Positions 5,633-21,919 of a DNA stretch of 31,275 nt are shown here, piece after piece (positions within the stretch are counted from its first letter, which is position 1; the number at the start of each line of letters is the position of its first letter). The notes beneath the pieces are model-generated. The model saw only the letters and a program-made list of their open reading frames with translations, was not told the DNA's origin and searched no databases. Made by a program: the position numbers and the translations under genes. Source of the DNA: a virus; IMG/VR virus record IMGVR_UViG_3300047191_000016, positions 1-31,275 of that record; one strand, written 5' to 3'.

Positions 5633-5797
5633 ATGTTAATAAATAGTTCGAAAAAGTCTATATCGAGCATTATCGAGAACCTCACAGGGATGTGGCCTAC
5701 GGTGTGCCTCGAACCGGGGGCGGACAAGGGCTTGAGGGCTGTCAATGGGCAGACAATAATGACAGACGATAATGCGACCGATAGAATCGATACATAA
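5633..5797 (+). CDS. Possible small protein of 54 residues
   Basis: ATG at 5633, stop TAA at 5795-5797. The product begins 'MLINSSKKSISSIIENLTGM' and ends with an acidic stretch (MTDDNATDRIDT). There is no ribosome binding site, but a promoter at 5595-5623 would produce an almost leaderless message. It overlaps the upstream extension of the beta-helix ORF. No family recognised; this may be non-coding leader. Confidence 0.3.
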   Translation: MLINSSKKSISSIIENLTGMWPTVCLEPGADKGLRAVNGQTIMTDDNATDRIDT

Positions 5798-7961
5798 AGG
5801 TTACGATAAACAAAGACTTCGCCTGAACTATCTTTTGGACAATTGCCCAATAAAATCCCTATTGGATATAGACTTGGCAAATTCGAACTATTTGCCTTGT
5901 GAGGTTAGGCCGGTAGAATCCCTCTGCCGGCCTTCTTTTTATTTAGCGGTTTTGTTTTTGTCTTCTCCGCTTTGGGCTTTGACATATTACGTGGACATTA
6001 ACGACAGTAACGGGTTGGACAGCCGGACTTCCACACAAGCGCAGGTGATTACCACGCCGTGGAAAACACTCACGAAGGCACAGTCTGTGGCAACGAGCGG
6101 GGACACGGTCATTTTGAAGAATGGGGATTACGGTGCTTATACAGAGACTACGACCGTTCGGACTGATTGGGTCACTTATAAAGCCGACACCGGTCATACT
6201 GATGTGAATTTTACGTCTATTTATCTGGGTCAATGGAACGGCCCGTTTAATAAATATCTGATTTTTGACGGGATAAGAGTTATTCCGGCTGATGTGGCTG
6301 TGTGCTACGGGGTCAAAATAATAAATGCCAGATATGTTAAGTTTAATAATGTTACTGTGATAGGCCCTTCGAGCAAATATGTTCCTGGTGATACGAAAGC
6401 CGGATTTTATATGACAAATGGTCCTAACTATATTGACATCAACGATTGCACGATTGACTCATCTTCTTATGAGCCGGACACGTCTTTTGATATTGGCATC
6501 AACGCTATGAGTCCGGGTGCATTTAATGTTACAGTGACAGATTGTAATATCCAGCGGGGCAGGGTAGGTATAAGTGCTAACGGCACTAACTGGACCATTG
6601 CGAATAATCACATACACAATACTGATAGCGATGGGATTTTTTGTATTGACCTTGCTCATAGCACGATTGAAGACAACATCATAGAAGACATAGGGGTCCG
6701 GGTCCCATATCATTCTTATTCCGGCGGGTGCTCTTACGTCAACGCGACAAAAACAATTACTGCTAATTCGGGCAATCCGTGGTCTGGAGTCCCAACGTGG
6801 GTGTCTATTCCCAGTTGGCGGGCGTTTGTGCGTATAACGCCGGAAGGCGGAAGTCCGACCGGTTGGTATCTCATCGATGCCAATACTACCAGCACTCTGC
6901 ATCTTATTACTGCGTTTGGTCAGGATTATCTGAATATTTCACTTGTCGAATTAAGGCACACTTGGCACTCCGATGGGATACAGGCATATAACGGTTCTGC
7001 TTCGCCGCCCAGAAATGTGGAGTATCTTACTATCAGGCGCAACATTATAGACCATATAGTGCACGGAGGTGTCTTTTTTAACGTCACTCTTGGCTCTCGT
7101 TATATCACGATGGAGAATAATTTCGTCCGAAGTATAAAGTCTCTTGGTATAGTACCTGCGGAGGTAATGCAGAACGCCGTGTCTTTTACGGGGACGCTGC
7201 ACCTTAGATTTATAAACAATACCATTCCAGGCGAGCAGGGAAGTGTATGGTCAACGGACAATGCCGGCAAGGTAATCATACGGGCACAAACAGTGCCAAC
7301 ACCTGATGTCAACAGTACTATAGATGTATTTGCCAATAACATTATTGATATGCTTGACTTTTACTGGGACAACGGGGAGGTAAACGACATCAACTATGAA
7401 AACTATAATATCATAAATAAAGTTTGGGCCCATATGAATACCTATACTCGCGGGTCTAATGACATTTATCTCAATGGTAATGTGTCAAGTTTCAAAGTTT
7501 TGTTTGCCGGTTATGACAATAACGATCTTAGTCTTTCTTCGGATTCGGCGGCTATAAATTCAGGAAATTCTACTTATGGTGGGGCAACTGATGTTCTTGG
7601 CCATATAAGGGCGGGAATTACTGATAGAGGTGCTTTTGAGTATGGAGGAGGCACGGACCCGCCTAATCATTCTCCGGTTCTTGGGGAGATTGGCAACAAG
7701 TCTGTCAATGAAAACGCCCTTTTGACTTTTACAGTTCACGCTACTGATGAAGATGCGGACCCCTGCACTTATTCTGTTGCGGGTTTGCCGGTGGGAGCGA
7801 CTATAAACTCATCGACGGGAGTATTTAGTTGGAGGCCGACTTATAGTCAGGGTGGGGTTTATAATAATGTTATATTTACGGCCGGTGATGGTTCAAATCA
7901 GGACACAGAAACTGTTGTGGTAACCGTCAATAACAAACCTCAAGGTTTTATAGGGAGATAG
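5772..7961 (+). CDS. Beta-helix (pectate-lyase-like) surface protein with C-terminal cadherin-like domain
   Basis: 729 codons from the first ATG; the true start is uncertain. A hydrophobic stretch near residues 55-70 (SFYLAVLFLSSPLWA) looks like a signal peptide, so TTG 5892 may be the real start. A transcription terminator (5908-5940) lies inside the ORF just before this stretch. From 'TYYVDINDSNGLD' onward the pattern is a right-handed parallel beta-helix: many short N-x-x-I/V-x-x-N turns and a 'W-K-T-L-T-K-A...G-D-T-V' N-terminal cap. The last ~95 residues ('VLGEIGNKSVNENALLTFTV' on) are a cadherin-like/Ig-like domain. It is likely a tail fiber or decoration protein binding or cleaving surface polysaccharide. 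Catalytic residues not identified. Confidence 0.75.
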   Translation: MRPIESIHKGYDKQRLRLNYLLDNCPIKSLLDIDLANSNYLPCEVRPVESLCRPSFYLAVLFLSSPLWALTYYVDINDSNGLDSRTSTQAQVITTPWKTLTKAQSVATSGDTVILKNGDYGAYTETTTVRTDWVTYKADTGHTDVNFTSIYLGQWNGPFNKYLIFDGIRVIPADVAVCYGVKIINARYVKFNNVTVIGPSSKYVPGDTKAGFYMTNGPNYIDINDCTIDSSSYEPDTSFDIGINAMSPGAFNVTVTDCNIQRGRVGISANGTNWTIANNHIHNTDSDGIFCIDLAHSTIEDNIIEDIGVRVPYHSYSGGCSYVNATKTITANSGNPWSGVPTWVSIPSWRAFVRITPEGGSPTGWYLIDANTTSTLHLITAFGQDYLNISLVELRHTWHSDGIQAYNGSASPPRNVEYLTIRRNIIDHIVHGGVFFNVTLGSRYITMENNFVRSIKSLGIVPAEVMQNAVSFTGTLHLRFINNTIPGEQGSVWSTDNAGKVIIRAQTVPTPDVNSTIDVFANNIIDMLDFYWDNGEVNDINYENYNIINKVWAHMNTYTRGSNDIYLNGNVSSFKVLFAGYDNNDLSLSSDSAAINSGNSTYGGATDVLGHIRAGITDRGAFEYGGGTDPPNHSPVLGEIGNKSVNENALLTFTVHATDEDADPCTYSVAGLPVGATINSSTGVFSWRPTYSQGGVYNNVIFTAGDGSNQDTETVVVTVNNKPQGFIGR
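5908..5940 (+). terminator. Rho-independent terminator
   Basis: GGCCGGTAGA, a 5-base loop, TCTGCCGGCC, then TTCTTTTT. The 10-bp stem contains a single G-T wobble. It lies after the large terminase but inside the open frame of the following beta-helix protein, so either that gene begins downstream of it or read-through is controlled here. Confidence 0.85.
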
Positions 7962-7965
7962 ACAG

Positions 7966-9186
7966 ATGAAAAATTTGATGTTCTTAATCATATTGTGTTT
8001 GGCGGGCGGGTCACAAGCAACTACGTATTATCTGGATGTAACAACTGGGAACGACACTGATACTGGATTGACAGAAGCCCTTGCCTGGCAAACTTTTGAC
8101 AAGGCGTGCAGAAGTTTGACGGCCGGAGATACCGTTTACGTCAAGGCATCAGCATCTTATACGGCAGTCGATACTAACGATGCTAATATTGATATAAACG
8201 AGATAGGTACTGCTACTGCGGCCAATAATTTTATTGGTTATTCTTCCACAATATACGATGGCGGGATTGTCGAGGTCAATGCGGCCACGACAACTAACGC
8301 TTATTGTATAACCTCGAATAACTTGGGCAATCTCTATTATAAGTTTAGTAATTTTCGTTTTACCGGTGCAACAAGTCACGGGGTTTATGCCGGCAAAACG
8401 GCGGGTGCGGATGACAACTTGACTTTTATAAACTGCAAGTTTGATAATAATGGCGGGGATGGATTCAATGGGGACACGAGTCATAGTTTTATCAACTGTT
8501 TGTTTATTGACAATGCAGGAGATGGATTACAGGTTACTTCAGGTCTTTTTATGGAAAGTTGCATATCTTTTTCCAACACGGCAACCGGAGTTACTGCAAC
8601 ATCAAGTGCTAACATAAACAATTCTTTGTTTGCCGAAAATCTCGGAGACCAACTTGTTGCTACATTAGCTGTAATTGCTGATGGTTGCACATTTGATGGT
8701 AATGATGTAGCAAACTCTGATGGTATGTCTTTTGCTGCTACTGGCGGCGATAGGATTATTAATTGTATCTTTTATGACTGTGCCAAAGGCGTGAATAACT
8801 CATCTAATAGAACATACCGCATCGACCGCAATAACTGTTACTGGTCCTGCGGAGCGGCAAATACCAACTGGCCTGACCCGGCTGATGCAGATGCTGCTTT
8901 GAGGAATACATTTACAGCATCGAGCGACCCGTTTGTTTCGGTTGGCAGTATAACGGCTTATGTTCTCGCCGCTAATACTCCAAATACAGGGGCAAAATAT
9001 GGTGCACTTGATGCCGGTCATTGTGCGACCTTCTGGAACTCTTACCTAACAACGAACCCGCCGACCGGAGCTAATGCTGCGGCGGGATATAACGACATAG
9101 GCGCGAAGCAAAGAGTTGACCCTGCGGGTGGAACGACAACTACAAACTATTACATTCTTTCAAACAAGAATGGAGGTAAGCAGTAA
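7966..9186 (+). CDS. Second beta-helix surface protein with signal peptide
   Basis: 406 residues; GGGAGATAG lies before the ATG. Residues 1-18 (MKNLMFLIILCLAGGSQA) are a textbook signal peptide with a likely S-Q-A cleavage. Then comes 'TTYYLDVTTGNDTDTGLTEA' and a cap 'A-W-Q-T-F-D-K-A...G-D-T-V-Y-V', matching the preceding gene, followed by beta-helix coils (SFINCLFIDNAGDGL, NINNSLFAENLGDQL). Similarity to the neighbours at 5772 and 15625 suggests duplication of a common adhesin module. It starts four bases after the upstream stop and overlaps the next start by one base (TAATG), so these genes are one operon. Probable fiber or capsid decoration. Confidence 0.75.
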   Translation: MKNLMFLIILCLAGGSQATTYYLDVTTGNDTDTGLTEALAWQTFDKACRSLTAGDTVYVKASASYTAVDTNDANIDINEIGTATAANNFIGYSSTIYDGGIVEVNAATTTNAYCITSNNLGNLYYKFSNFRFTGATSHGVYAGKTAGADDNLTFINCKFDNNGGDGFNGDTSHSFINCLFIDNAGDGLQVTSGLFMESCISFSNTATGVTATSSANINNSLFAENLGDQLVATLAVIADGCTFDGNDVANSDGMSFAATGGDRIINCIFYDCAKGVNNSSNRTYRIDRNNCYWSCGAANTNWPDPADADAALRNTFTASSDPFVSVGSITAYVLAANTPNTGAKYGALDAGHCATFWNSYLTTNPPTGANAAAGYNDIGAKQRVDPAGGTTTTNYYILSNKNGGKQ

Positions 9187-10322
9187 TGAAAAAGTCACTA
9201 ACAATCCTATTCGTGTTGCTGTTGTGTTCTTTGGTCTTGGCGACAAAGGCAATTCCTTATGGTGCAACCGAACAGCACTTCACGGTGGTAATGCACAAAA
9301 GTAGCGGTGCCGTGAATCCAGGGATTACGGTAACGACCCTCGACTTTTACGCCGTCAAGGATAACAATGCCGTTTCGACTAAAGTTGACCTGACGGCAGC
9401 GACTTGCAAGGACAGAGGCTATGGAATCTACGATGTCGACATTCCCGACAGCTGGACGAATGGAACGTGGGCCACTTATGGCGACTGCGTTACGTTTATT
9501 CTGGATGATGTCAATACTGCCAACCCATTTCAATATGCCTTCTATGAAATTCAGATAAGTCCTCCGGCAGATATAACCAGTATTGGCCAGAGTTCTACTG
9601 CTGCCGCTAATCAGAAGACAGTATATTATACCGATTTTGCAACTGATTATAATACCACTACCGATATGTGGAATACGGACGTGAAATATGTTCTTGGCGA
9701 GGCACCAATGGATGATAACGCCATAACTGCTGCTGTGCCTACAACGGCTGAAATATGGGCAGAAGCAACACGGGAGATAACCGGCGGCACGATAGATACT
9801 TACGCAGACAACACTCCACAGACAGGGGACGCTTATGCAGTAGTTGTCGATTCCAATAACAACACGGAAGCGCTGATGGCAGACCTCAAAGTTCTGATAC
9901 TTGCCGTCATTGCTGATACTAACGCGGTGGATACTGCTACAGAAATGAAAGCGCGGATTTTTGGCGCAGACCAAAATGGCATTACTGCGAATGTCTGGAC
10001 TTCAACGAAAGCGGGATACTTGACTGGTTCAGTAGCTTTGGCATCAAATCTCGACATAAAACTTTCTGATGTTAATACAGTTTCACACGCACATCTGACG
10101 ACAATGGATACTCGTATTTCTCAAACGATACCTTTTGGCAGTCTTGGCGGCGTCTATTATCCGAAAGTAGTTGACCCTAACGCAAAAGGCCCGATGGCTC
10201 ACGGGGAGTCTATAACGGCAAATGTTGACCCGAATACTATTGTGGATAAGTCATTGACCGGCCACGATACGGTATTTTCCCTGTCTTGGTGGCTCAAAAG
10301 AGCAGCGGCATTCAGGAGATAA
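9186..10322 (+). CDS. Exported or virion protein of unknown function
   Basis: 378 residues; GGAGG eight bases before the ATG. The first ~20 residues (Lys-Lys, then a Leu/Val-rich core, then V-L-A-T-K-A) form a clear signal peptide. The next ~110 residues look like a beta-sandwich ('FTVVMHKSSGAVNPGITVTT'). The centre contains 'PTTAEIWAEATREITGGTID', like the V-W-x-A-x-x-x-x-L-T-x-G repeats seen in phage baseplate and fiber proteins, then a region rich in V-x-D-x-N and A-x-x-I-A. No catalytic motif recognised. Its place between the beta-helix proteins and the portal suggests a virion or fiber-attachment role. Confidence 0.6.
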   Translation: MKKSLTILFVLLLCSLVLATKAIPYGATEQHFTVVMHKSSGAVNPGITVTTLDFYAVKDNNAVSTKVDLTAATCKDRGYGIYDVDIPDSWTNGTWATYGDCVTFILDDVNTANPFQYAFYEIQISPPADITSIGQSSTAAANQKTVYYTDFATDYNTTTDMWNTDVKYVLGEAPMDDNAITAAVPTTAEIWAEATREITGGTIDTYADNTPQTGDAYAVVVDSNNNTEALMADLKVLILAVIADTNAVDTATEMKARIFGADQNGITANVWTSTKAGYLTGSVALASNLDIKLSDVNTVSHAHLTTMDTRISQTIPFGSLGGVYYPKVVDPNAKGPMAHGESITANVDPNTIVDKSLTGHDTVFSLSWWLKRAAAFRR

Positions 10323-10336
10323 AAGGAGTTAAAATT

Positions 10337-10543
10337 ATGATGGGTGCTTTGATGAGTGGGTTATTCGGTAAGCCAAAAGCCCCGAAAGTGGTTCAACCGA
10401 CACCGGTGACGCAAGTTACTGCCAATGTCGGGGACGAGCAGAAGCAACAATTGCTTCAGATGCTTGCCAAACGTAGGCGGGCGACCTTAATGAGTGCTCT
10501 CACGGACCCGAACATTGCCAGAAGGAAACTTGGAGCAGGATAA
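10337..10543 (+). CDS. Small conserved protein preceding the portal
   Basis: 68 residues; AAGGAG eight bases before ATG 10337 decides the start (an upstream GTG at 10286 has none). It opens with Met-rich 'MMGALMSGLFGKPKAPKVVQ' and contains 'KRRRATLMSALTD'. This resembles a family of small phage proteins with a G-R-x-S/A-T-I-L-T signature that sit immediately upstream of the portal. Function unknown; possibly a head-assembly accessory. Its end overlaps the ribosome binding region of the portal gene. Confidence 0.6.
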   Translation: MMGALMSGLFGKPKAPKVVQPTPVTQVTANVGDEQKQQLLQMLAKRRRATLMSALTDPNIARRKLGAG

Positions 10544-10547
10544 GAAA

Positions 10548-12233
10548 GTGGATAAAACGGTCCAAAATATAATTGATGAGCAGGTTCGACTCGAAAGTGA
10601 CCGCAAAGTTTATGAGTCATTAAAAGAACTTTGCATTTCATTGGCTTATCCTGACAGGTCGGACCAATATAGTCTTTACGGCGGGATTCACAGGGAAGAA
10701 GGAGGCGAGGGTAAACCGAACAGAGGCAGGAGGATTTACGACGCTACCGCCATTAAATCGCGGGAGATATGGTCTGCGGGCATTATGAGTCATTTTATGC
10801 CTAAAGAGATAAATTGGTTCACTGAGGAGATGGGCGATAAGAAACTGATGCAGTCAAAGCGCGTTCGGAAATGGTTGCAGGACACGGACGAGCACCTTGT
10901 CAGCGTTTTGAATCGCAGCAATCCCAATTACTACGAGCAGAAATTGGTCCGTATAAATGACGCTGGGGTAATCGGTGATTCCTTTATGTATATCGACCAG
11001 GACCCCGAAAGCGACAGACTTATGTTCCAGTGTCCGCATCCGAGACAGTTTTGGTCCAGGAGAGATTATTGGGGCAGGCCCCTTGTCATACACGAAAAGT
11101 TTACAAAAACTATTGATGAGATTAAAGGCGAGTTCGGAGAAAATGGTCTTTCGGACGAGCAGAAACTTCAATTAGAGAAAAATCCGAATAATAAAATCGA
11201 GGTCATTCACGGCGTTTACAGGAACACCGATTATGAGCCGGATAAAATCGGCGTTAAGAATATGAAGTGGCAACATTACTATATTAACGTTGTCGCCAAA
11301 AAAATTATTCGCAGTACCGGCACGGAAGTTCTGAACCCCATTGGCTGGTCGCTTAACAGGCCATCACACGAGCTATATGGCCGTGGAATAGTATCTCAAA
11401 TGCTCATTGAGATAATAACGGCAAATTTCATATCGAAAGATATTTTAACGGCTTCTCAAATTGCCGTCAAGCCGCCGATGCTTATAACTTCCGCGATAAA
11501 GCATAAACTTGACCTGGGGGCGGGCGGAGTTACTTACGTTGGTTCGAGAGAGACGCAGGGACTAAAGATGGGTGATTTGATTGCCCGCCTGGTAGATAGT
11601 AGCGGCTATCCCTTCGGGATTGACCAGCAGCAAAAATGGCAAATTATGGTCGAGGAGAGGTTCGGCGTGCCTCTGTTTCTTGCCCTTAATTCGGATTCTA
11701 TCGCAAAGACGTATGGCGAGGTCAGAGAACGCAAGGCGGAACGTGCAACCTTGATGTCCCCATTTTTCGGCACTTTAACCAGCACAACCGATGAGGAGCT
11801 CGACAGAGTATATTCTCTCGAATTTCAGGCCGGTCGCACACCGGAACCGCCGATGGAAGTGTTCGAATCACAGAACAGGCACATTGACATCGAATACATC
11901 GGCCCTATAACTCAACTGTTGAAGCAATACTATGAGACCGGCAGTTTATTGAATACAATTATGAACATCCAGCAGGTCTTGTCGGTTGCCCCGCAGGCCG
12001 GTATAGTGGTTGAAGGCGACGAGTTAATGAGAAAGATATTGAAGTCGGGTAATTCGCCGGAAGAAATTATATTGACCGCCGATGAGGTAACGGAACTTCG
12101 GGCCATCGCTCAACAGCAGCAGGAAGGATTGATGCAGATGGAACTCGCGGAAAAGGCGGCGAAGGCAGTGCCGAATCTGGGCAAAAAGATAGAACGGGAC
12201 AGTGTATTAAGTAATTTGGCAAAAATGGCATAA
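10548..12233 (+). CDS. Portal protein (head-tail connector, T7 gp8-like)
   Basis: 561 residues from GTG 10548, with AGGA seven bases upstream; TTG 10530 is an alternative. The N-terminus 'SDRKVYESLKELCISLAYPD' plus 'GRRIYDATAIKSREIWSAGI' and 'INDAGVIGDSFMYIDQDP' match the podovirus head-tail connector family (Pfam Head-tail_con). The length is normal. Twelve copies would form the ring at one capsid vertex through which DNA is packed. The C-terminus is helical with a Gln-rich stretch ('LRAIAQQQQEGLMQMELAEK'). It is followed by tiny accessory genes and the scaffold, the usual order. Confidence 0.9.
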   Translation: MDKTVQNIIDEQVRLESDRKVYESLKELCISLAYPDRSDQYSLYGGIHREEGGEGKPNRGRRIYDATAIKSREIWSAGIMSHFMPKEINWFTEEMGDKKLMQSKRVRKWLQDTDEHLVSVLNRSNPNYYEQKLVRINDAGVIGDSFMYIDQDPESDRLMFQCPHPRQFWSRRDYWGRPLVIHEKFTKTIDEIKGEFGENGLSDEQKLQLEKNPNNKIEVIHGVYRNTDYEPDKIGVKNMKWQHYYINVVAKKIIRSTGTEVLNPIGWSLNRPSHELYGRGIVSQMLIEIITANFISKDILTASQIAVKPPMLITSAIKHKLDLGAGGVTYVGSRETQGLKMGDLIARLVDSSGYPFGIDQQQKWQIMVEERFGVPLFLALNSDSIAKTYGEVRERKAERATLMSPFFGTLTSTTDEELDRVYSLEFQAGRTPEPPMEVFESQNRHIDIEYIGPITQLLKQYYETGSLLNTIMNIQQVLSVAPQAGIVVEGDELMRKILKSGNSPEEIILTADEVTELRAIAQQQQEGLMQMELAEKAAKAVPNLGKKIERDSVLSNLAKMA

Positions 12234-12248
12234 AATGGAGAACCAATT

Positions 12249-12455
12249 ATGTTAGTAAAAGAAGTAACATTGGGCGTATCGACAGTCAACGACCACGAAA
12301 GAAGGATTACGGAGCTGGAGGAAAAAGTGAAACAACTTTTACCCGATTTGCAACAAGCGAAACCGACAGGACCGGAACCAGAACCAGTAGTAGTGGCGGA
12401 AGAACCGACGAAAAAAAGAGGTCGTCCGCCAAGACCTGTTGAGGAAGGAATGTAA
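12249..12455 (+). CDS. Small coiled-coil protein with AT-hook-like tail
   Basis: 68 residues; GGAGAACC lies before ATG 12249. Residues 13-36 (NDHERRITELEEKVKQLLPD onward) form a short coiled coil. A Pro/Glu linker leads to 'KKRGRPPRP', which matches the core of an AT-hook (R-G-R-P), a minor-groove DNA-binding motif. It could bind DNA during packaging or simply be a basic tail. No family recognised. Confidence 0.6.
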   Translation: MLVKEVTLGVSTVNDHERRITELEEKVKQLLPDLQQAKPTGPEPEPVVVAEEPTKKRGRPPRPVEEGM

Positions 12456-12457
12456 AA

Positions 12458-12625
12458 ATGCCCGCAGTTAAACCGAATGAAAGCCGTAACGATTATGTCG
12501 CGCGTTGTGTTCCTATATGTATGAAGGAAGGTCTTGACCAAAAGGCCGCAGTCGGAAAATGCGAGGGAATTTTTATGAGTCATCGTAAGACCGCTCGCAA
12601 AAGAGGTTCAAAAGGGAAAGGATAG
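12458..12625 (+). CDS. Small conserved phage protein (55 aa) next to the portal
   Basis: The product begins 'MPAVKPNESRNDYVARCVPI', then 'CMKEGLDQKAAVGKC', then a basic tail. This matches a common small phage protein of the form M-P-x-P-x-x-x-E-S-x-x-x-F-[IV]-x-R-C-[IV]-P-x-[VL]-x-x-E-G-x-x-x-x-Q-A-V-A-x-C, found beside portal or capsid genes in many phages. Its role is unknown. The spaced cysteines may bind a metal. GAGGAAGG in the end of the upstream gene is its ribosome binding site. Confidence 0.75.
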   Translation: MPAVKPNESRNDYVARCVPICMKEGLDQKAAVGKCEGIFMSHRKTARKRGSKGKG

Positions 12626-12630
12626 AGCAG

Positions 12631-12894
12631 TTGAGACAAATAGAGGCGGCGCAGGAATCAGAAGCGAAAGTAAAGGCGCTTTACAGGAGTGTTTTTGCCG
12701 ATGGTTCAGGACGTATCGTTCTCGAAGATATGCTTTGGGATTTATATTTTTTGCGTCCTTGTCAGACGCCGGAACAACAGGCATTGTCTAACTATGCGAA
12801 GGAGTTACTGGCTTTGATATATGAACCGCCGATAGAAAGCTGTATGATTTTCAGTTTAATCAGGAAACTTTTTAACAGAAAAGCAAAGAAATGA
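12631..12894 (+). CDS. Bbp19-like small phage protein
   Basis: 87 residues from TTG 12631. AAAGGA eight bases upstream supports this start and no ATG fits. Residues 15-65 (ALYRSVFADGSGRIVLEDML, then NYAKELLALI) match a small helical family I know as Bbp19-like: F-x-x-V-F-x-x-x-x-G-x-x-V-L-x-D-L. It is commonly found in podovirus head gene clusters; its function is not established. The C-terminus is hydrophobic then very basic (SLIRKLFNRKAKK). Confidence 0.55.
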   Translation: MRQIEAAQESEAKVKALYRSVFADGSGRIVLEDMLWDLYFLRPCQTPEQQALSNYAKELLALIYEPPIESCMIFSLIRKLFNRKAKK

Positions 12895-13058
12895 AATATC
12901 AAGAATTTATAAGACGGGCACAAGATGACCTTTTGGAACTTATTCGGACGGACCAAATAGACCCGAAGAAAAAGTCTGACCATATCAGAGTTTTGAATTG
13001 TCAATTATCGATAGACGTTTCTACCGATGAAATTGTCGAAGTTTGTGAGAAATTTTAA
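12891..13058 (+). CDS. Small protein of 55 residues, unknown
   Basis: It starts with ATGA overlapping the previous stop, so translation is coupled; there is no clear ribosome binding site of its own. The product begins 'MKYQEFIRRAQDDLLELIRT' and continues as an acidic helical protein ending V-C-E-K-F. No family recognised. The tight packing between the Bbp19-like gene and the scaffold supports it being real. Confidence 0.5.
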   Translation: MKYQEFIRRAQDDLLELIRTDQIDPKKKSDHIRVLNCQLSIDVSTDEIVEVCEKF

Positions 13059-13072
13059 CAGGAGAACCGAAA

Positions 13073-13831
13073 ATGAGTGAATTTGTTGACGAAAACGGGT
13101 TGCTAACTGATGAATTTCGGGAAGCGTTGCCTGAAATTCTCGGTGATGATTACTACAACGACCCAAAGACAAAACAGGAGCCGACAAAGATATTTGACCA
13201 GGTCAAGGACTTGAAAACTTTGACCAAAAATTACATCAATGGTCAGAGAGCTTACAGTAAAAAAATGGAAGGCACGGTCAAAGTTCCGACTGAAACATCT
13301 TCGCCGGAGGAAATCAAGGCGTTCAGAACGGCCTTGGGTGTGCCGGATTCGGAAAAAGGATACGAGCTGCCTATTCCTGATGACGAACTGGACAAAGAAG
13401 GGTTTAACGTTATTGCCGGTGAGGTCAGGAAAGCCGCTTTGGAGGCCGGAATGCCGTCTAAAATGGTCCGGAGTGTTTGGGGCAAGGTCGTGGCGGCCGT
13501 AAAAGCGCAGAATATGGAACTTGAGAAAAAAGGACTCGCACTGATACAGAAAGATGAAGATGACCTCAGGGCTGAATTGAAGGAAAAATACGAACCCTTT
13601 ATAAAGGATACCGATACGGTTCTTGCGAAAATCAAAACTGGTCCTGAAGTATCCAAGTTACTGGATACTTTTGGTATCCGTAATCATCCGGCTATTCGGA
13701 AAATGCTGGCCGAGATAGCGCCTCTGGTCCTTGAGGGCCATACGGTCGGCGGAACGGGTGGAGAACAAAAACTGACAACCGATGGATTTCCAACTTACAA
13801 GTATGATGCACAGGGAAAACCGATAGAATAA
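13073..13831 (+). CDS. Capsid assembly scaffolding protein
   Basis: 252 residues; AGGAGAACC lies before the ATG. It is acidic and helical with typical scaffold features: an N-terminal 'DEFREALPEILGDDYYNDPK', then 'FDQVKDLKTLTKNYINGQRA', 'EEIKAFRTALGVPDSEKGYE' with L-P-I-P-D-D, a coiled coil around residues 140-180, and a Gly/basic C-terminus. The V-P-x-x-x-x-G-Y-E-L-P signature and the position between portal and major capsid are diagnostic. It would guide prohead assembly and then leave. Confidence 0.85.
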   Translation: MSEFVDENGLLTDEFREALPEILGDDYYNDPKTKQEPTKIFDQVKDLKTLTKNYINGQRAYSKKMEGTVKVPTETSSPEEIKAFRTALGVPDSEKGYELPIPDDELDKEGFNVIAGEVRKAALEAGMPSKMVRSVWGKVVAAVKAQNMELEKKGLALIQKDEDDLRAELKEKYEPFIKDTDTVLAKIKTGPEVSKLLDTFGIRNHPAIRKMLAEIAPLVLEGHTVGGTGGEQKLTTDGFPTYKYDAQGKPIE

Positions 13832-13837
13832 CAAAAT

Positions 13838-13992
13838 CTGAAACCCGCAAGGGACAATTCAGTTTTTAAGTCGTTCAGACAACCCCGCAAGAGGACTGAT
13901 GCTTACCGAATAAAGCGTTCGGCGGCGCAACGGCCGTAAAGCGTCAGGGCAGACCGCAATGTTGCGGATAACTCCCGAATCGTTCAGGCAAC
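13838..13992 (+). ncRNA. Structured RNA element in the leader of the major capsid gene
   Basis: Several stems can be drawn directly. (1) CTGAA/TTCAG (13838-13862) with an inner CCC-GCAA-GGG tetraloop, followed by TTTTT: terminator-like. (2) A second GCAA-capped hairpin at 13876-13898. (3) A three-way junction: CTGATGCTT (13896-13904) pairs with AAGCGTCAG (13939-13947) and encloses hairpins CCGAA/TTCGG (13906-13922) and CGGC/GCCG (13923-13936). (4) CCGCA/TGCGG (13954-13967). A 13-base word, TCGTTCAG[A/G]CAAC, occurs at 13871 and 13980. No ORF spans the region. It could be a cis-regulator, a processed small RNA, or an attenuator between scaffold and capsid. No known class recognised. Confidence 0.6.
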
Positions 13993-14030
13993 AATGAAAA
14001 GTATGTTTCTGAAAAGAAAAGGAGTTATCT

Positions 14031-15065
14031 ATGTCAACATTTTATATCAATAATAAATACACCCTTTTGGACAGGGCCAAAGAGACCATTGACGGCAAAA
14101 CGGTTCTGCCTGTTATTCAGGTAATGAACCAGCTTGTCGATGATTTCTTTGCGGACGTACCTTTTGTCGAGGCCAATATGGGTCTCAAACACAAACTCAT
14201 TCGTGATACTGGTATGGTGGCCAGCACGAACAGGTCTTTCTACACAGGCGTTACCGCTTCGAAACTCAACAAGCAAACCGTCTATGAGGATGTGGCTCTT
14301 ATGGAGCGGCGCCGGGAAATTGACGAGGACGATATTGAAACCCTCTCGAATCCCGCTGAAAAACTGCGTCAGGAAGATGAGGCCCACGTTCGCAAGCTCG
14401 GCGAGGACATCGTCAATGTTTTCATTAACGGAACACAGGCGAGCGGTGGAGAATATATCAATGGTCTTCTTCAGCGACTCGATGCTCTCAATCCGACCGG
14501 ACTGAACAATGTTCTGTCTAACGGTCATACCGGCGACGGCTCGACTACGACATCAGTTCTTGTGGTCGAATGGAACACGGATGCAACAGGCGGCGCTTTC
14601 GGAATTTATCCTCCTGGCTGGATGAAGAATACAGTATTCGGCGTTTCTGTTAGAGATAAGGGCAAAGAGCCTTGTCTTGAAGTTGAAACAGATGTGAACG
14701 CAAAGTATTACGCTTATGTCGCACAGTTTAAGGCGTGGCTTGGTATGGCAGTAGGCAACAATCGCAAGATTGCCCGGCTTGCCAATATCAATCCGGTAAT
14801 CGGCGGGGCGAAGTCCTTTACGGATGTCGGTGTTGACAATCTGATTAAACTGCTCAATACCGGTCGATTCGACAGGGGCCGGACGCGCATCTATTGCAAT
14901 ACGACCGTAAAGACGCAGATGGATATTTACGCCAAAGACAAGGCGAATGTTCTCTGGACAACGGCCGAAGTTTTCGGAAGGCCGGTAACGACGTTTCAGG
15001 GTCAGATACCCATTCGCACCATTGACGATGTTGTTTTGACAAATACACAGGCAGTAGTCAGCTAA
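14031..15065 (+). CDS. Major capsid protein
   Basis: 344 residues; AAGGAG seven bases before the ATG. The sequence belongs to the podovirus capsid family with an HK97-type fold: 'LMERRREIDEDDIETLSNPA' in the long-helix region, 'TTTSVLVVEWNTD' followed by 'FGIYPPGWMKNTVFGVSVRD', matching the S-x-x-x-V-x-W-G-x-x-x-x-x-G-I-Y-P-x-G pattern, and a C-terminal 'GRPVTTFQGQIPIRTIDDVV'. It is present in hundreds of copies per virion. The unusually structured leader upstream suggests its high expression is controlled after transcription. Confidence 0.9.
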   Translation: MSTFYINNKYTLLDRAKETIDGKTVLPVIQVMNQLVDDFFADVPFVEANMGLKHKLIRDTGMVASTNRSFYTGVTASKLNKQTVYEDVALMERRREIDEDDIETLSNPAEKLRQEDEAHVRKLGEDIVNVFINGTQASGGEYINGLLQRLDALNPTGLNNVLSNGHTGDGSTTTSVLVVEWNTDATGGAFGIYPPGWMKNTVFGVSVRDKGKEPCLEVETDVNAKYYAYVAQFKAWLGMAVGNNRKIARLANINPVIGGAKSFTDVGVDNLIKLLNTGRFDRGRTRIYCNTTVKTQMDIYAKDKANVLWTTAEVFGRPVTTFQGQIPIRTIDDVVLTNTQAVVS

Positions 15066-15097
15066 TCGAGTAATTAGCTAATTGAAAGGAAATAACT

Positions 15098-15547
15098 ATG
15101 AAAGATTATCTTCTTAGTGATGCACAGGACATTACTACCTGTGATACCACAGGTAAGAAATCCACAAACATATTAGATATGGAACTGGTTGCCTCCGGTG
15201 GGGCAACAATTCTTACAAATGACCAGCTTGTTGGGGTTGTTAATATAATTATTCCTGCACTTGCTGCTCAGGCAGCAACCCAAGGTTTATACATCTATCT
15301 GGTATCCAGTGATAACTCTGATATGAGTACAGGAGCAATAAGACTGGGGATGTGTTTCGTATCAATGGCGGAAATGATTGCTGGATGCGTGAAGAACATT
15401 CAGGTTTGCGTCCCATTGACCCAATGCTTTGTAGGTCTTTGGTTTGCGGCACATACCACAACATTGACAACTGGTCAAACTGTTGACGCATACTTCAGTA
15501 TTGCACCGATAACATTAAATGATGCCGTGCAGAAAGTGCCGGCGTAA
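15098..15547 (+). CDS. Capsid cement/decoration protein, Bbp16-like
   Basis: 149 residues; GAAAGGAA before the ATG. It begins 'MKDYLLSDAQDITTCDTTGK', like the family of small capsid cement proteins that start M-x-D-x-x-L-L-S-D-A-Q-A-[IV]-T and follow the major capsid gene (Bbp16-like). The body is a predicted beta-sandwich, with 'GLYIYLVSSDNSD' equivalent to the L-x-L-x-x-S-x-D-N-S strand of the family. It would bind on the capsid surface at symmetry axes. A strong hairpin follows it. Confidence 0.75.
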   Translation: MKDYLLSDAQDITTCDTTGKKSTNILDMELVASGGATILTNDQLVGVVNIIIPALAAQAATQGLYIYLVSSDNSDMSTGAIRLGMCFVSMAEMIAGCVKNIQVCVPLTQCFVGLWFAAHTTTLTTGQTVDAYFSIAPITLNDAVQKVPA

Positions 15548-15562
15548 TCCATAACTTTTACA

Positions 15563-15598
15563 GGAGGCAGCCGGTTCTCCTGTTTTCCGGCTGCCTCC
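15563..15598 (+). terminator. Strong 12-bp hairpin after the cement gene
   Basis: GGAGGCAGCCGG and CCGGCTGCCTCC form a perfect stem around the loop TTCTCCTGTTTT. No T-run follows (ACTTTGAG), so it may act as an RNA-processing or mRNA-stability hairpin instead of a classical terminator. It shares the word GCCGGTTCTCCT with the hairpin at 30465-30523. Confidence 0.4.
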
Positions 15599-15624
15599 AC
15601 TTTGAGATTTAGAAAGGAAAAATT

Positions 15625-16644
15625 ATGAGAAAGAAAATTGTTTTAGGCGCGATACTTTTTATTGTGTTTGCGTCCTTGATTTTTGCCAGCACTTCCGCCT
15701 TCGACATTCAATGGTGGAACCAGGCGACTTATTCTCCATTACCATCCAATACTTTGCGTCAGTGGGCGGAAAATATGGAGGGTAGAGTTGGTTACAATCT
15801 TGGGATAGGTAAGATTTTCTATGTCAATTCTGCCGTGACGAATGAAGGTGATGGTTCATCGTGGACAAACGCAAGAAATACTATTGATGAAGCCATAGAC
15901 CTTTGCACGGCCAGCAAGGGCGATGTGATTTACGTCGCTCAGGGCCACGCCGAAACCATTATAAACGCTACTGGTTTGCTTCTTGACAAGGCGGGCGTTA
16001 CCATAATCGGTATCGGGACCGGCTCATTACGTCCCAAAATTACATTTACGACTGCTGCCGCTGCAACGGTAAGCATAACGGCTGCCAACTGCACATTCTC
16101 CGGCTTTGATATTTACAGTAATTACACCGGCGGCGTGACTGCTGCTATAACGATTTCCGCTACCGGCGATGGTGCTGTAATTGACAACTGCATATTTACA
16201 GAAGCAAGTGTTACAGAGGAACAGCTTACCTCGATTAGTATAGCAACGACAACGACTGATATAGTTGTTAAAAATTGTTCCTTCTACAATGCTGCCGCCG
16301 GGCACCAGGACAGTGTGATTTTGTTCGTGGGGTCAAATACGAACTGCAAGATTTACAACAACACCTTCTTTTCCGATGCTGAAACGGCGGTCATCCTGGG
16401 AACGACAGGTGCAGGAACGGGTCTCATTATTGAAGCAAACCGTTTCTATCTTACAGATACAGGACAGTTAGCCGCCAGTCTTAAATCAGATACGACGGGT
16501 TTGATTATTCACAACTTGGCTATGCCGGGTGCTGGAACTGACGATGCGTCCGCGTGGTCGGCAACTGTAATGGGTTACTTTGAGAATTACACAACGAATA
16601 CTTTCGTGAATTCCGGCAGATTAGACCCTGCGGTTGATTCTTAA
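15625..16644 (+). CDS. Third beta-helix virion protein with signal peptide
   Basis: 339 residues; AAAGGA before the ATG. N-terminal M-R-K-K plus a hydrophobic core to about residue 21 (ends S-L-I-F-A) gives a clear signal peptide. Next, 'QWWNQATYSPLPSNTLRQWA' and 'GKIFYVNSAVTNEGDGSSWT' lead into a beta-helix domain: 'GDVIYVAQGHAETI', 'LDKAGVTIIGIGTG', 'ITAANCTFSGFDIY', 'IDNCIFTEAS'. Proteins with the G-K-x-[FY]-Y-V-D...G-H-A-E-T-I pattern follow capsid genes in other podoviruses, normally without an obvious signal peptide. Probable capsid or tail decoration. A terminator follows. Confidence 0.75.
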   Translation: MRKKIVLGAILFIVFASLIFASTSAFDIQWWNQATYSPLPSNTLRQWAENMEGRVGYNLGIGKIFYVNSAVTNEGDGSSWTNARNTIDEAIDLCTASKGDVIYVAQGHAETIINATGLLLDKAGVTIIGIGTGSLRPKITFTTAAAATVSITAANCTFSGFDIYSNYTGGVTAAITISATGDGAVIDNCIFTEASVTEEQLTSISIATTTTDIVVKNCSFYNAAAGHQDSVILFVGSNTNCKIYNNTFFSDAETAVILGTTGAGTGLIIEANRFYLTDTGQLAASLKSDTTGLIIHNLAMPGAGTDDASAWSATVMGYFENYTTNTFVNSGRLDPAVDS

Positions 16645-16649
16645 CTAAT

Positions 16650-16678
16650 GGGGGCCTTTTGGCCCCCTTCTTTTCTTC
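16650..16678 (+). terminator. Rho-independent terminator before tail tubular A
   Basis: GGGGGCC-TTTT-GGCCCCC followed by TTCTTTTCTTC. The 7-bp GC-only stem, tetraloop and T-rich tail are textbook. It separates the capsid block from the tail block, so tail genes either depend on read-through or have their own promoter, which I could not identify. Confidence 0.9.
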
Positions 16679-16690
16679 TTTTGGTGGTTT

Positions 16691-17539
16691 ATGACTAATG
16701 CGGCGGATAAAGTGGCGATATGCAATATAGCCCTTTTGAGTGTAGGCCAGTCGTTTATAGTTTCTCTGACTGAAAATTCGGTATGGTCGAACAAACTCAA
16801 TTCCATATTCGAGAAAGTAGTCGAGGAATTATTGGCCGATGACTGGTATTTCAATCGAAAGAGAGTTTTGCTTTCAGACCTTACGCTGGTCTATAAACTG
16901 ACTGTCGATACCGCCCCCGCCGCCGCCGCGTTTGCCGTTGGAGCTACGCTTACCGGCGCGACAAGCTTAAAGACCTGCGCCGTTCTCGAAGTCTTGTCTA
17001 ATACGGTTTATTTGGTAACGGAACCGAGTGGTGATTTCACAGACGGCGAAGTGATAGGGGATGGAACTAACAGTGTTAATTGTGCCACAGGTTATCCCGA
17101 AATTTCCGAGGTATTAGCGTGTGGGACTTGGGATTATGGTTACAAATTGCCGACCGACCAACTTTTTATTCGCGGTGTTGGTGATGCGGATTATGACAAA
17201 ATCAAGTATCCGTATTCGCAGGAAGGTCGGATTTTACTGACTAATCAAACTGACGATTATCTGTTCTATAATAAATGGATTGGTTATACCGGAAGTGCAG
17301 CCGTGTCCGATGTGACTTTAATGCCTTTGTGGTTTCACAGACTCATTTCCGCGAAATTAGCATATATTCTTGCTACAAGCATTACAGACAATATGCGTTA
17401 TCGGCAGAAAGCGGAAGTGGAATGGGACAGGGCTTACCTGTTTGCGAAGGAACAGAATGGTTTGAGTGCATATTCGGAATACGAACAGAGTAATAACGAC
17501 TGGGCGGAAGGTGCTGGTCGTATCATAGGGACAATTTAA
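16691..17539 (+). CDS. Tail tubular protein A (T7 gp11-like) with an inserted beta domain
   Basis: 282 residues; GGTGG close to the ATG. 'KVAICNIALLSVGQSFIVSL' and 'VVEELLADDWYFNRKRVLL' (residues 8-61) and 'WDYGYKLPTDQLFIRGVGD' onward (147-282, with 'FHRLISAKLAYILA' and 'KAEVEWDRAYLFA') match the gatekeeper protein that caps the portal and joins the tail. Between them, residues 68-140 form an extra beta-rich, repeat-like module (F-A-V-G-A-T-L-T-G-A-T... and F-T-D-G-E-V-I-G-D-G-T) absent from T7 gp11. Removing it leaves about 209 residues, near the normal length. Confidence 0.8.
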   Translation: MTNAADKVAICNIALLSVGQSFIVSLTENSVWSNKLNSIFEKVVEELLADDWYFNRKRVLLSDLTLVYKLTVDTAPAAAAFAVGATLTGATSLKTCAVLEVLSNTVYLVTEPSGDFTDGEVIGDGTNSVNCATGYPEISEVLACGTWDYGYKLPTDQLFIRGVGDADYDKIKYPYSQEGRILLTNQTDDYLFYNKWIGYTGSAAVSDVTLMPLWFHRLISAKLAYILATSITDNMRYRQKAEVEWDRAYLFAKEQNGLSAYSEYEQSNNDWAEGAGRIIGTI

Positions 17540-17554
17540 CGAAAGGAAATTGCA

Positions 17555-18145
17555 ATGAAACGGAAAATTCTTATTTTGGTGGCTTTGTTATTGTCAGTGG
17601 GGGTTATATTGAGTCCTTCCTTCAGTGATGAAACAATCACAGTCCAAGAGACAGCCTTTTTGGTAGCTGTCGCCGATGCAAACGCTGCTGCTCTGACTGT
17701 TCTTACGACTTCCTGGGCTGCTACTGCTGCCTGGCCTGAAATACCGCAGAAAGCTAATTGTGTAAAGGTCAAGTTTTATGTCTATGACCCTTGCGGACCT
17801 GATGATAAGACTTTCACCTATCAGTTGTATATTGCTGATTATGGTTGCAACGCCGAAATAGCGGCAAGTGGAAGTGCAACTTGCGGGAAGGCAGAAATGA
17901 GTCATAACCCTATAACACTCGGTCTATTAAATAGTGGGGCTATTTCTACTTCTTATAGATGGGTCGATACGCTCGGAACGATAACTTCGGATTTGGCAAA
18001 TGCCATTTATCCGCAAAATGACGGTGGGGCGGACGAAGTCGCTTCTTTCATCTTCGACCGGCAGTCAGCGAAGAAAATCTGGTGCAGGCTTTACGGGCGC
18101 GCGACTACGACTATGGTCGTCTATTGTGTGGCCTACTATTTCTAA
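17555..18145 (+). CDS. Signal-peptide protein of unknown function between the tail tubular genes
   Basis: 196 residues; GAAAGGAA before the ATG. It begins M-K-R-K with a Leu/Val/Ile core to about residue 20 and a likely cleavage after S-F-S (about 24). The mature part is rich in Ala and Thr, with 'VKFYVYDPCGPDDKTFTYQL' and several cysteines, and would be an all-beta domain ('TTTMVVYCVAYYF' at the end). No family recognised. The position between tail tubular A and B suggests a tail or spike component. Its last 46 bases are part of the 64-bp direct repeat. Confidence 0.6.
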   Translation: MKRKILILVALLLSVGVILSPSFSDETITVQETAFLVAVADANAAALTVLTTSWAATAAWPEIPQKANCVKVKFYVYDPCGPDDKTFTYQLYIADYGCNAEIAASGSATCGKAEMSHNPITLGLLNSGAISTSYRWVDTLGTITSDLANAIYPQNDGGADEVASFIFDRQSAKKIWCRLYGRATTTMVVYCVAYYF

Positions 18146-18163
18146 ATGGAGTGATTAAAAATG
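18100..18163 (+). repeat. 64-bp direct repeat, copy 1
   Basis: Identical at all 64 positions to 22445-22508. It holds the last 46 bases of the gene at 17555, the intergenic ribosome binding site (GGAGTGATTAAAA) and the ATG of tail tubular B. Here the coding frame through it is natural, so this is probably the source copy. Confidence 0.95.
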
Positions 18164-21100
18164 CGAACATTCTCGTTGGTAATTACAGTATGTTTGTCGG
18201 CGGTTTGTATTGCCGCTCCGCTCTTCAATTCCTTCAATAGTGGCGAATTATCTCCTCTGATTAAATATCGAGTCGATATACAACAGCGACAAAGTGGCGT
18301 AGAAACTTTGGAGAATATGCTGGTTAAAGTGCCAGGCGCGGCGGCCAGGCGACCAGGCACGGAGTATATTGCCGGCACGAAAAACAACGGGCGGGCAAGG
18401 TTGGTTCCATTCGAGTATTCCACTGAAGATGCTTACATTCTGGAGTTCGGGGACAAATACATTCGTTTTTTCAGGGACGGTGGTCAGATTTTATCAGGTA
18501 TCGGCATAGAGAATTATGCAGGTCTTGATTGCGAAGGTGATTTGCTTGCACACTGGAATCTAAACGATGACGATGATAGTAATCGTGTTACGGAATTAAA
18601 CGAGATTTACAATGGCGTGATTGTTGATTCAAACAGTGAGGACATTCATTGGTTCGGCAAGGTCGGGGCCGGTTGTTTTGATTTTGGTCAAACTGATGCC
18701 GTTCTTATACCGGATAATGCCGTCTGGACTTTCGATGAAAATGATGATCCGTTCACGGTGGCCGCCTGGATTTACGTTACGGACACGGATGAAGTTCAAA
18801 CTATCCTTTCAAAATGGGATGCTTCCATTGGCAGGGAATGGCGATTTCAACTTTTGCCGAATGAGACGATTAGATTAGAGTTATATGATAATAGTTTAGA
18901 CATTATTGGTAATTGTATTTCGCAGTGGAAACTGAATGATGATACGAACAATGCGACGGTCGTTGATTCGCGGGGAGAGCAGGACGGAACAGTGGGCGTG
19001 AATACTTCCGTATTGGCCAACCCTGCGGGGAAAATCAACGGCTGTTTTGATTTCGATAATGCCTACGCGGTAACAGTAGACGATAACGCCGTCTATTCTT
19101 TTGGGAATAGTTCGACGGATGTTGCTTTTAGTATCGGATTATGGGCAAAAATCAGCGGGTCAGGAGGCGAAATTTTCATTTCAAAATGGGATTCAGCAAA
19201 CAAAAGAGAATGGTCTTTATATACTGAATATATTAGTCCCACTACATTTTCCATCAATACCCAGTTATATGATGAAAGTGTGGATAAATATATTTTCCAG
19301 ACAACGAATGCTTTAAGCAATAATACAAATTGGCATTTTGTTGTTATGACTTATAGCGGTAATGAATCATATACTGGAATAAAAATTTATGTTGACGGCA
19401 TTAATTCGACAGGTTCTTCAGGATATAAACAAACTGGTTATATCGCGATGGAAAATCTCGCCGCAAAAGTTGCGATAGGAGCATATTATACTTCTGGAGT
19501 CCTGAGTTATTTTTATGATTTAGTTATCGACAATGTAATGATATTCAATAAGGAATTATCTTTGGCTGAAGTTGCAAGTTTATATGTATTTGGTTCAGGA
19601 ACAGAATCCCTTATAGGCGATTCAGTTTATGCCACGTCAAACGAGCCATTGGAAGGGAGCTGGCATTTTGTCGTTGCCGGTTATGATTCAACCGGCGGGG
19701 CAACGGCAGCGAACGGGATAACTCTTTATGTGGATGGAAATGATGTTAATTCGACTGCCCACAATTATACGAGTTATGTAGCTATGGAGAATACCGCCTC
19801 TACTGTTTTAATCGGGGCACAAAAATCAACGTCCGGCAACTTGCAATATATTTATGCCGACAAGATTGATAATGTCGCAATATTTCAGGACGTATTAGAT
19901 GCGAATGAAATAGCCGACCTTTATACCATAGGCGAATATGAAATCATATCTCCTTATACTGTCTCGATGTTAAGGAATATTCATTATGTGCAAATCAATG
20001 ATATAATATATTTTGTTCATCCTGATATTCCGCCTCAAAAGTTGACCCGCTATAATCACGACTTATGGACTATTGAGCAGATAGATTGGTTATGGGGGCC
20101 TTTTCTCGAAGATAATATAACGGATATTACCATAACTCCTTCCGGTACAACGGGGACAGTTACCCTTACGGCCAGTAAGAAATTGTTTAAGCCGGACCAA
20201 GTAGGTGCTTTGTGGAAAATCACTGAAAAGCAGGACACGACTTATATCAAGGAAACAATAAGTTCAAATAAATCCACGTCATCTTTGCAAATACAGGGAG
20301 ATTATCTATTAAAACTTGTAAGCACTGGTCTTAATGCTCTTATTGTTCTCGAAAAAAGTGAGGATGATGGAACTACTTGGATACCGGTTTATCAAAGACC
20401 CGGCATAGATACGACTACGGATTTTGACGTGGAATACGCAGGCAATGAAGTTGAGAGGGGTTGGATATATCAGATTACAACCACTGATAGAACGGCAGGG
20501 AGTGTAAAGGTGACTTTAACGGCAAATGAAAATTATCTCGATGGTTATGTTAGGATTACTGATTATATCAGCTCTACTGTTGTTCAGACCCTTGTGATAG
20601 AGGATTTGGCCGGCACTTCCACCACGAAAAGATGGGCGGAAGGGTCTTGGAGCGATTACAGAGGATGGCCGCGTGCGATAGAATTGTATCAAAATCGTCT
20701 TGTTTTAGCAGGGACAAAATATCAACCAAACGGGATATGGTTTAGTTCCAGTTTGGATGGTGAAAATATGGAGGTCACCGGTCTTGATAGCGGGGCCATT
20801 GATTATGAAGTAGGTTCTGCAAAACAGAACCCTATCCTCTGGCTTCAGAGCAAAAACGGTGTGATAGCAGGAACGAGTGGCTCGATAATAAGGATTTTCA
20901 GTCAATCTTCCAATTCCACTTTGACCCTTTCGAGTATCGGTTCTGAAACTCAAAACCAGGCTGGAAGTTGTGATATGCAGGCGCAACTAATCAATGATTC
21001 CATCGTCTTTGTTGATAGGAACCATCGAAAAATAAGGGATATTGTATATGACCTTCAAAGTGATAGTTTCGTTTCGCCGGAACTGACCGTTCTTGCCGAA

Positions 21101-21919
21101 CATATAACGGACCCCTGCATTGTCGAGGTTGCTGTCCAGAACAGGCCGGAACCAATATTGTGGTATATCAGGGGAGATGGTGAAATGGTAAGCCTTACCT
21201 ACAATAAAGAACAAGCCGTTACGGGCTGGGCAAGGCATATAACGGAAGGTGGAGAGTTCGAATCTGATGCCGTTATACCATCGGCAACCGAAGACGAGTT
21301 ATGGGTCATTGTCGATAGGACAATAGATACCAACGAAGTCCGTTACATAGAAAGATTCAAACCACAGGACTGGGGGACTGACCCTAATAACTGCTGGTTT
21401 GTGGATTCGGGCTTGTCCTATTCCGGCATTTCGACTCATACGTTAACGGGTCTTGGCCATTTGGAAGGTGAGGAAGTCCAGATATTTTATGATGGTAATT
21501 CTTTCGAGACAAAAGATGTAAATGGAGGAGAAGTCATTCTTGACGTGAATGTAACAGGCGCTATTGTCGGGTTAGGCTACGCTTCGACTTTGCAAACTTT
21601 TCCGGTGGAATTAAATATGCAGAATGGTCCGACCGTCGGCCACAGTAAGAAAATATACGAAATTGTGGGATGCTTCTATCGAAGTATGTTTGGCGAATAC
21701 GGATATGTCGGGCAATGGAGCATTCCGACAATGTATGCAATTCCTTTTAGTGTATGGCCGGACAGTTCTATTGGTTCGGATGCCCCGTTCACTGGACAAA
21801 TAAGACTGCCGATAGACGGCGGTTGGGACGATGAAGGACGAATAAAATTCTATCAGAACGAACCTTATCCTATGAATATTACGGCTTTGGTGACAAAAAT
21901 TGAGGTCAGCGAAAATTGA
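18161..21919 (+). CDS. Tail tubular protein B (T7 gp12-like) with nested LamG domains and signal peptide
   Basis: 1252 residues. Residues 1-18 (MRTFSLVITVCLSAVCIA) look like a signal peptide. Then 'FNSGELSPLIKYRVDIQQRQ', 'GAAARRPGTEYIA' and 'IRFFRDGGQI' are the family start. At residue ~112 the family sequence is interrupted and resumes at ~591 ('YEIISPYTVSMLRNIHYVQ', 'VHPDIPPQKLTRYNHDLWTI'). The insert is one LamG/concanavalin-like domain (127-246 plus 483-590) itself split by a second complete LamG domain (about 248-479), marked by repeated 'F-x-[SI]-K-W-D', 'W-H-F-V-V' and 'Y-V-D-G' motifs. The C-terminal half is the usual tail nozzle. LamG domains bind glycans, so the insert probably projects for host attachment. 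Confidence 0.85.
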   Translation: MRTFSLVITVCLSAVCIAAPLFNSFNSGELSPLIKYRVDIQQRQSGVETLENMLVKVPGAAARRPGTEYIAGTKNNGRARLVPFEYSTEDAYILEFGDKYIRFFRDGGQILSGIGIENYAGLDCEGDLLAHWNLNDDDDSNRVTELNEIYNGVIVDSNSEDIHWFGKVGAGCFDFGQTDAVLIPDNAVWTFDENDDPFTVAAWIYVTDTDEVQTILSKWDASIGREWRFQLLPNETIRLELYDNSLDIIGNCISQWKLNDDTNNATVVDSRGEQDGTVGVNTSVLANPAGKINGCFDFDNAYAVTVDDNAVYSFGNSSTDVAFSIGLWAKISGSGGEIFISKWDSANKREWSLYTEYISPTTFSINTQLYDESVDKYIFQTTNALSNNTNWHFVVMTYSGNESYTGIKIYVDGINSTGSSGYKQTGYIAMENLAAKVAIGAYYTSGVLSYFYDLVIDNVMIFNKELSLAEVASLYVFGSGTESLIGDSVYATSNEPLEGSWHFVVAGYDSTGGATAANGITLYVDGNDVNSTAHNYTSYVAMENTASTVLIGAQKSTSGNLQYIYADKIDNVAIFQDVLDANEIADLYTIGEYEIISPYTVSMLRNIHYVQINDIIYFVHPDIPPQKLTRYNHDLWTIEQIDWLWGPFLEDNITDITITPSGTTGTVTLTASKKLFKPDQVGALWKITEKQDTTYIKETISSNKSTSSLQIQGDYLLKLVSTGLNALIVLEKSEDDGTTWIPVYQRPGIDTTTDFDVEYAGNEVERGWIYQITTTDRTAGSVKVTLTANENYLDGYVRITDYISSTVVQTLVIEDLAGTSTTKRWAEGSWSDYRGWPRAIELYQNRLVLAGTKYQPNGIWFSSSLDGENMEVTGLDSGAIDYEVGSAKQNPILWLQSKNGVIAGTSGSIIRIFSQSSNSTLTLSSIGSETQNQAGSCDMQAQLINDSIVFVDRNHRKIRDIVYDLQSDSFVSPELTVLAEHITDPCIVEVAVQNRPEPILWYIRGDGEMVSLTYNKEQAVTGWARHITEGGEFESDAVIPSATEDELWVIVDRTIDTNEVRYIERFKPQDWGTDPNNCWFVDSGLSYSGISTHTLTGLGHLEGEEVQIFYDGNSFETKDVNGGEVILDVNVTGAIVGLGYASTLQTFPVELNMQNGPTVGHSKKIYEIVGCFYRSMFGEYGYVGQWSIPTMYAIPFSVWPDSSIGSDAPFTGQIRLPIDGGWDDEGRIKFYQNEPYPMNITALVTKIEVSEN

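Follow-up and report, generated by a model that had tools for sequence, protein, structure and literature searches.

Gene content of the window

The window (the whole stretch of DNA that was analysed, an IMG/VR virus record of 31,275 bases) is a podovirus, and its genes follow the order of epsilon15/BPP-1-like podoviruses (portal phrog_332, capsid phrog_212, TTA phrog_394, nozzle phrog_376; Table 1). The order capsid-cement-TTA-nozzle-acetyltransferase-internal virion proteins is the same as in phiV10, BcepC6B, vir555 and HTVC010P. Two large genes lie downstream of the internal virion protein gene. The family search gave no match of its own for the probable cement gene, no phage homologue for gene 9186 and no match in named phages for the 17555 family, and the AlphaFold models of 9186 and of the 17555 family were unusable (pLDDT 33 and 37, respectively).

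The nozzle family is shared over its full length with the known podovirus nozzles (phrog_376; 8ck1; epsilon15/phiV10, BcepC6B and HTVC010P types). The profile of this family matched the solved nozzle 8ck1_A with E=2.6e-210, and the L093 relative alone matched it with E=2.5e-82. The reference nozzles start 8-11 residues before the motif F..GELSP and have no hydrophobic extension, whereas the window nozzle has both a signal peptide and inserts of LamG-like type in addition. Its start lies 24 residues before the motif, hence outside the close start that is usual in the family (a common trait rather than a defining one).

Two copies of a 79-nt direct repeat flank the nozzle/acetyltransferase block, and the second copy lies within some 170 nt of additional sequence that L002 lacks. 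Two further repeat arrays are located upstream of the terminase gene (Table 1).

Table 1. Features of the window, in order of position (SP, signal peptide)
Feature	Position	Strand	Basis or remark
Small gene, 108 aa, start MLTTILCMLALNA	1764-2090		may encode an exported lysis enzyme
Short direct repeat resembling ACCAAAAAAGGTAA, in five copies	2462-2620		inside gene 2229 (replication-initiator-like); possibly iterons or origin
Three imperfect ATAAGTTTTACTTATAGTAGTATAA repeats	3739-3886		intergenic, between 3590 and 4138; regulatory-looking array
Terminase	4138		window gene list
Beta-helix and Ig-like protein with apparent headless SP remnant (~5928-5978)	5772-7961	+	Beta_helix and He_PIG matches
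Strong terminator-like hairpin with T tail	5907-5933		inside ORF 5772
Beta-helix-like protein, SP MKNLMFLIILCLAGGSQA	7966-9186	+	SP score 12.4; weak phrog_16653 hydrolase match
378-aa protein, no fold assigned, SP ~22 aa	9186-10322	+	SP score 16.3
Portal / head-tail adaptor, without SP	10494-12233	+	phrog_332 E=5.6e-71
Scaffold-like gene	13073		window gene list
Major capsid protein, without SP	14031-15065	+	phrog_212
Probable capsid cement protein, without SP	15098-15547	+	position after the major capsid gene as in vir555/BcepC6B
Right-handed beta-helix protein after the cement gene, SP ~25 aa	15625-16644	+	SP score 17.4
Tail tubular A / adaptor (TTA), without SP; cytoplasmic partner	16691-17539	+	phrog_394 E=1.4e-25
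196-aa predicted exported protein adjoining the nozzle, SP ~22-24 aa, 6 Cys in mature part	17555-18145	+	SP score 16.9
79-nt direct repeat (94%), copy 1	18097-18175		spans 17555 end, ribosome-binding site and nozzle start
Nozzle SP, MRTFSLVITVCLSAVCIA	18161-18214	+	basic n-region, hydrophobic core, A-x-A-like site
Tail nozzle / tail tubular B with inserted LamG/ConA-like domains	18161-21919	+	phrog_376 E=1.1e-179 over residues 21-1251; Laminin_G_3
Acetyltransferase-like gene	21916		window gene list
79-nt direct repeat (94%), copy 2	22442-22520		just before 22506
Internal virion protein, without SP	22506-23012	+	phrog_418 E=3.9e-22

Prediction of signal peptides

Signal peptides were called with a home-made rule scoring the n-, h- and c-regions. 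We considered as Sec type I any start with a basic n-region, a hydrophobic h-region of 8-16 aa and small residues at -3/-1. All eight textbook signal peptides from E. coli were recovered by the rule, and within the nozzle family it had a false-positive rate near 1 in 250. In the window it calls five genes (7966, 9186, 15625, 17555 and 18161); precisely, they carry 1-4 basic residues, a hydrophobic core of 8-16 residues and a small-x-small site, and are mostly preceded by a ribosome-binding site (GGAG for the nozzle gene). We refer to such genes as tagged.

The initial annotation had placed signal-peptide starts on these same five genes, and all of them have complete n-, h- and c-regions. It had also reported a hydrophobic stretch ahead of the family start of the nozzle, where we found 18-19 residues. 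For gene 5772 it had pointed to a similar stretch: the hydrophobic residues are present (53-69), but none of the in-frame start codons would make them part of a signal peptide. The terminator-like hairpin of this ORF lies just 5′ of the hydrophobic core, so that 5772 looks like a signal-peptide gene with a replaced head; its annotated start is doubtful. The small gene at 1764 was not called by the rule because it has no basic residue.

For the genes upstream of the nozzle, the rule gave 17 calls among 904 genes in 163 control loci, versus 13 among 34 in the first six signal-peptide loci (Fisher P = 1.2e-12); one of these 13, the L193 adaptor, is probably false (weak score of 9.5, ordinary adaptor start). 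Chance hydrophobicity is ruled out by this comparison and by the nozzle and tailspike surveys described below.

Survey of nozzle homologues

In a first set of 257 nozzle homologues, only the tagged set and one weak false call scored. Among 267 distinct homologues of phrog_376, 11 were called by the rule (the window, L002, L003, L093, L192, L193, L290, L310, L370, L371 and L376). A twelfth, L291, has a clear signal peptide by eye, with a longer basic region; L377, whose hydrophobic segment is present and whose start is unclear, is not among the twelve. Hence 12 phages have a nozzle signal peptide, versus about 255 homologues without. Nearly all the untagged nozzles start 8-11 residues before F..GELSP, and the predicted sites in the tagged ones leave 5-9 residues ahead of this motif, so that cleavage would restore approximately the canonical nozzle start. 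For L093, L192 and L193 we considered, by eye, the small-x-small site nearest to the hydrophobic core, the top score of the rule being a few residues further on.

A check proposed with the initial annotation was whether orthologues keep the hydrophobic start. They do so, in favour of that reading, in at least 12 phages, with low identity and with the signal-peptide character conserved, and the segment is present on every nozzle of the tagged clades surveyed. The tags vary widely in sequence while their layout is kept, a pattern that points to selection acting on their character as signal peptides. Near the canonical nozzle start we found no internal start codon conserved among the tagged nozzles. 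A start-codon error is thus ruled out, the tag being conserved in 12 phages and mostly accompanied by a ribosome-binding site. The complete circular genome of L093 (127-nt terminal repeat) holds one nozzle gene; in this genome an untagged spare copy is ruled out, and the tagged gene must supply the virion.

Tailspikes and neighbouring genes

The alignment of the spike domain was too divergent for a scan of the collection, and this survey was done on the locus set instead. In nearly all 85 distinct homologues from the loci surveyed, the podovirus tailspike/tail fibre head-binding domain (phrog_1640/2234) has its canonical Met start (MTVSTT...). Four of the 85 (L093, L376, L035 and L235) have, by the rule, a signal peptide ahead of an otherwise canonical domain, and the L193 tailspike has a lipoprotein-type signal by eye. 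Spike and nozzle are both tagged in three of these five genomes (L093, L376 and L193); L035 and L235 have a tagged spike and an untagged nozzle. The tagged proteins include two indisputable virion families, nozzle and tailspike.

The beta-helix gene after the cement gene is tagged in the window, L002 and L192; its homologue in MW202647 is untagged and starts downstream of the signal-peptide position. Orthologues of 17555 with a signal peptide are found in L002 and L093. At least one gene between cement and nozzle, or just 3′ of the nozzle, is tagged in L002, L003, L093, L192, L193, L290, L291 and L376. All the genes of this region except the adaptor are tagged in L290, the nozzle alone is tagged in L310, and the L003 gene at 2620 has a lipoprotein-type signal. 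In the first six genomes and most later ones, conserved signal peptides split the outer tail from the head and internal proteins: nozzle-adjacent genes are tagged, while the major capsid, portal, cement, TTA and internal virion proteins are untagged. The adaptor TTA, one gene away from the nozzle, has no credible signal peptide in the window or in any relative surveyed.

Signal peptides were also seen on two downstream tail-fibre-like genes in L201 (19653-22105), one with a DEDDMASNS..TQQS motif, in a locus whose nozzle is untagged. A signal-peptide-like gene lies upstream of the nozzle in the archaeal-virus relatives L009 (4872-5384, just before the adaptor) and L103.

Cysteine makes up 1.11% of the tagged and 0.39% of the untagged virion-region proteins, a comparison confounded by protein class; in nozzles alone the values differ little (0.85% versus 0.62%). 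The higher content in tagged proteins fits an oxidising compartment weakly. Acidity is likewise higher in tagged nozzles (net charge -7.4% versus -3.1%).

Gain and loss of signal peptides and putative host

The nozzle tree (72 rows) needs six tag changes, at least three of them forced by well-supported branches. G512 is a complete circular phage and a close relative, whose nozzle is 55% identical to that of L093 and nested among tagged nozzles, although in this phage nozzle and spike alike are untagged and have canonical starts. This position, together with the canonical starts, indicates that both tags were lost together there. G512 still has tags on a beta-helix gene (13424) and on two genes encoding 228 aa (17798) and 485 aa (30078). 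Strictly all-or-none tagging is ruled out by G512, L035 and L235.

L093 is an unintegrated contig in a Phycisphaerae MAG, and G512 is one in a second MAG of that class, to which the search was limited. This binning of unintegrated contigs is the only lead to the host, which may be a member of the Phycisphaerae (Planctomycetota). Most Planctomycetota nozzles are untagged, and this rules out the tag as a general trait of planctomycete phages. Considering also that the contigs are unintegrated, the tag appears to be a trait of phage lineages and not of the host phylum.

Interpretation

In the textbook view, the assembly of tailed phages takes place entirely in the cytoplasm. The export tags found on outer tail proteins suggest that some of the virion is made beyond the host cytoplasm. 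Judging from the sequences, we give about an even chance to the reading in which the hydrophobic N-termini are working, cleavable Sec signal peptides and the outer tail is exported and joined to filled heads at lysis. From the tags we infer export, cleavage, and the place and time of joining, as follows. The cytoplasm would be the site where heads, with their portal, capsid, cement, TTA and internal proteins, are built and filled. Sec would export the nozzle together with the beta-helix proteins that resemble spikes or fibres, signal peptidase would remove their tags, and folding would take place in the periplasm. Heads and exported parts would meet once the inner membrane opens at lysis, and the tail would be completed in the periplasm or in the medium. 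The general form of this proposal, in which cytoplasmic heads with their adaptor are joined to Sec-exported nozzle and spikes after the breach and tags are gained or lost jointly on interacting tail parts, is tentative and stands a little short of an even chance.

The initial annotation had already listed assembly linked to export among its possible explanations, beside uncleaved membrane anchors. The split between outer tail and head or internal proteins fits export after synthesis. Against the export reading, tagging is not all-or-none: G512 tags beta-helix genes and not nozzle or spike, L035 and L235 tag the spike and not the nozzle, and L310 tags the nozzle only. Moreover, the nozzle normally helps to seal the DNA-filled head; under the export model heads must hold their DNA without it, which is a point against.

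It is somewhat unlikely that the signals are uncleaved anchors, with nozzle and spikes held in the inner membrane, heads docking there and the tail released at lysis. Anchoring is possible with a hydrophobic core of 12-16 residues, and signals of the lipoprotein type, which tether to a membrane, occur on one L193 spike and on the L003 gene at 2620. However, the cores are short for transmembrane anchors, and the small-x-small sites that close the nozzle tags lie where the family canonically begins; the position of these predicted sites favours a cleavable signal over an anchor.

We consider it unlikely that the tags are real and the exported pool has another role (surface coating, superinfection exclusion or depolymerase release), the virions using an untagged cytoplasmic fraction. 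The beta-helix, LamG and Ig-like domains do resemble secreted adhesins or hydrolases, and the tags of G512 are on beta-helix genes, but such a fraction is at odds with the lack of a conserved internal start near the canonical nozzle start and with the single nozzle gene of L093.

There is a slim chance that the segment is a structural helix kept in the virion, for head-nozzle contact or for membrane insertion at ejection. The nozzle touches the host envelope during infection, and the segment sits on this protein throughout the tagged clades surveyed. Against this, the same n-h-c layout occurs on unrelated proteins (nozzle, spike, beta-helix and 17555), lipobox versions included, and the residues are poorly conserved while the signal character is kept. 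Finally, it is very improbable that the tags have no function, having been brought in by beta-helix genes for secreted host proteins and then passed on through recombination. The region is recombinogenic, with the 79-nt repeat flanking the nozzle/acetyltransferase block, and the beta-helix genes look host-like, but the tags have several origins, are retained over large divergence and were lost jointly from nozzle and spike in G512.

Comparison with known systems and implications

A precedent for the proposed joining is the P22 tailspike, a tail part that adds to tailless, finished heads outside the cell. In P22 this joining is an in vitro laboratory result, and we know of no export signal on its tailspike. 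SAR endolysins, spanins, Lom and superinfection-exclusion lipoproteins are phage proteins using host Sec/Lsp export (spanins are treated as phage-encoded exported proteins in PMC3556154, and the signal peptide of Lom is mentioned in PMC12309495), but they are not virion parts, whereas here nozzle and tailspike are tagged. The protein families are known ones, and signal peptides on nozzle or tailspike are without precedent in the open literature searched, where we found no report of them.

If the export reading is true, part of a Caudoviricetes virion would be secreted and joined later. Head completion, DNA retention and lysis timing would have to work differently in these phages, and disulphide-bonded tail parts would become possible.
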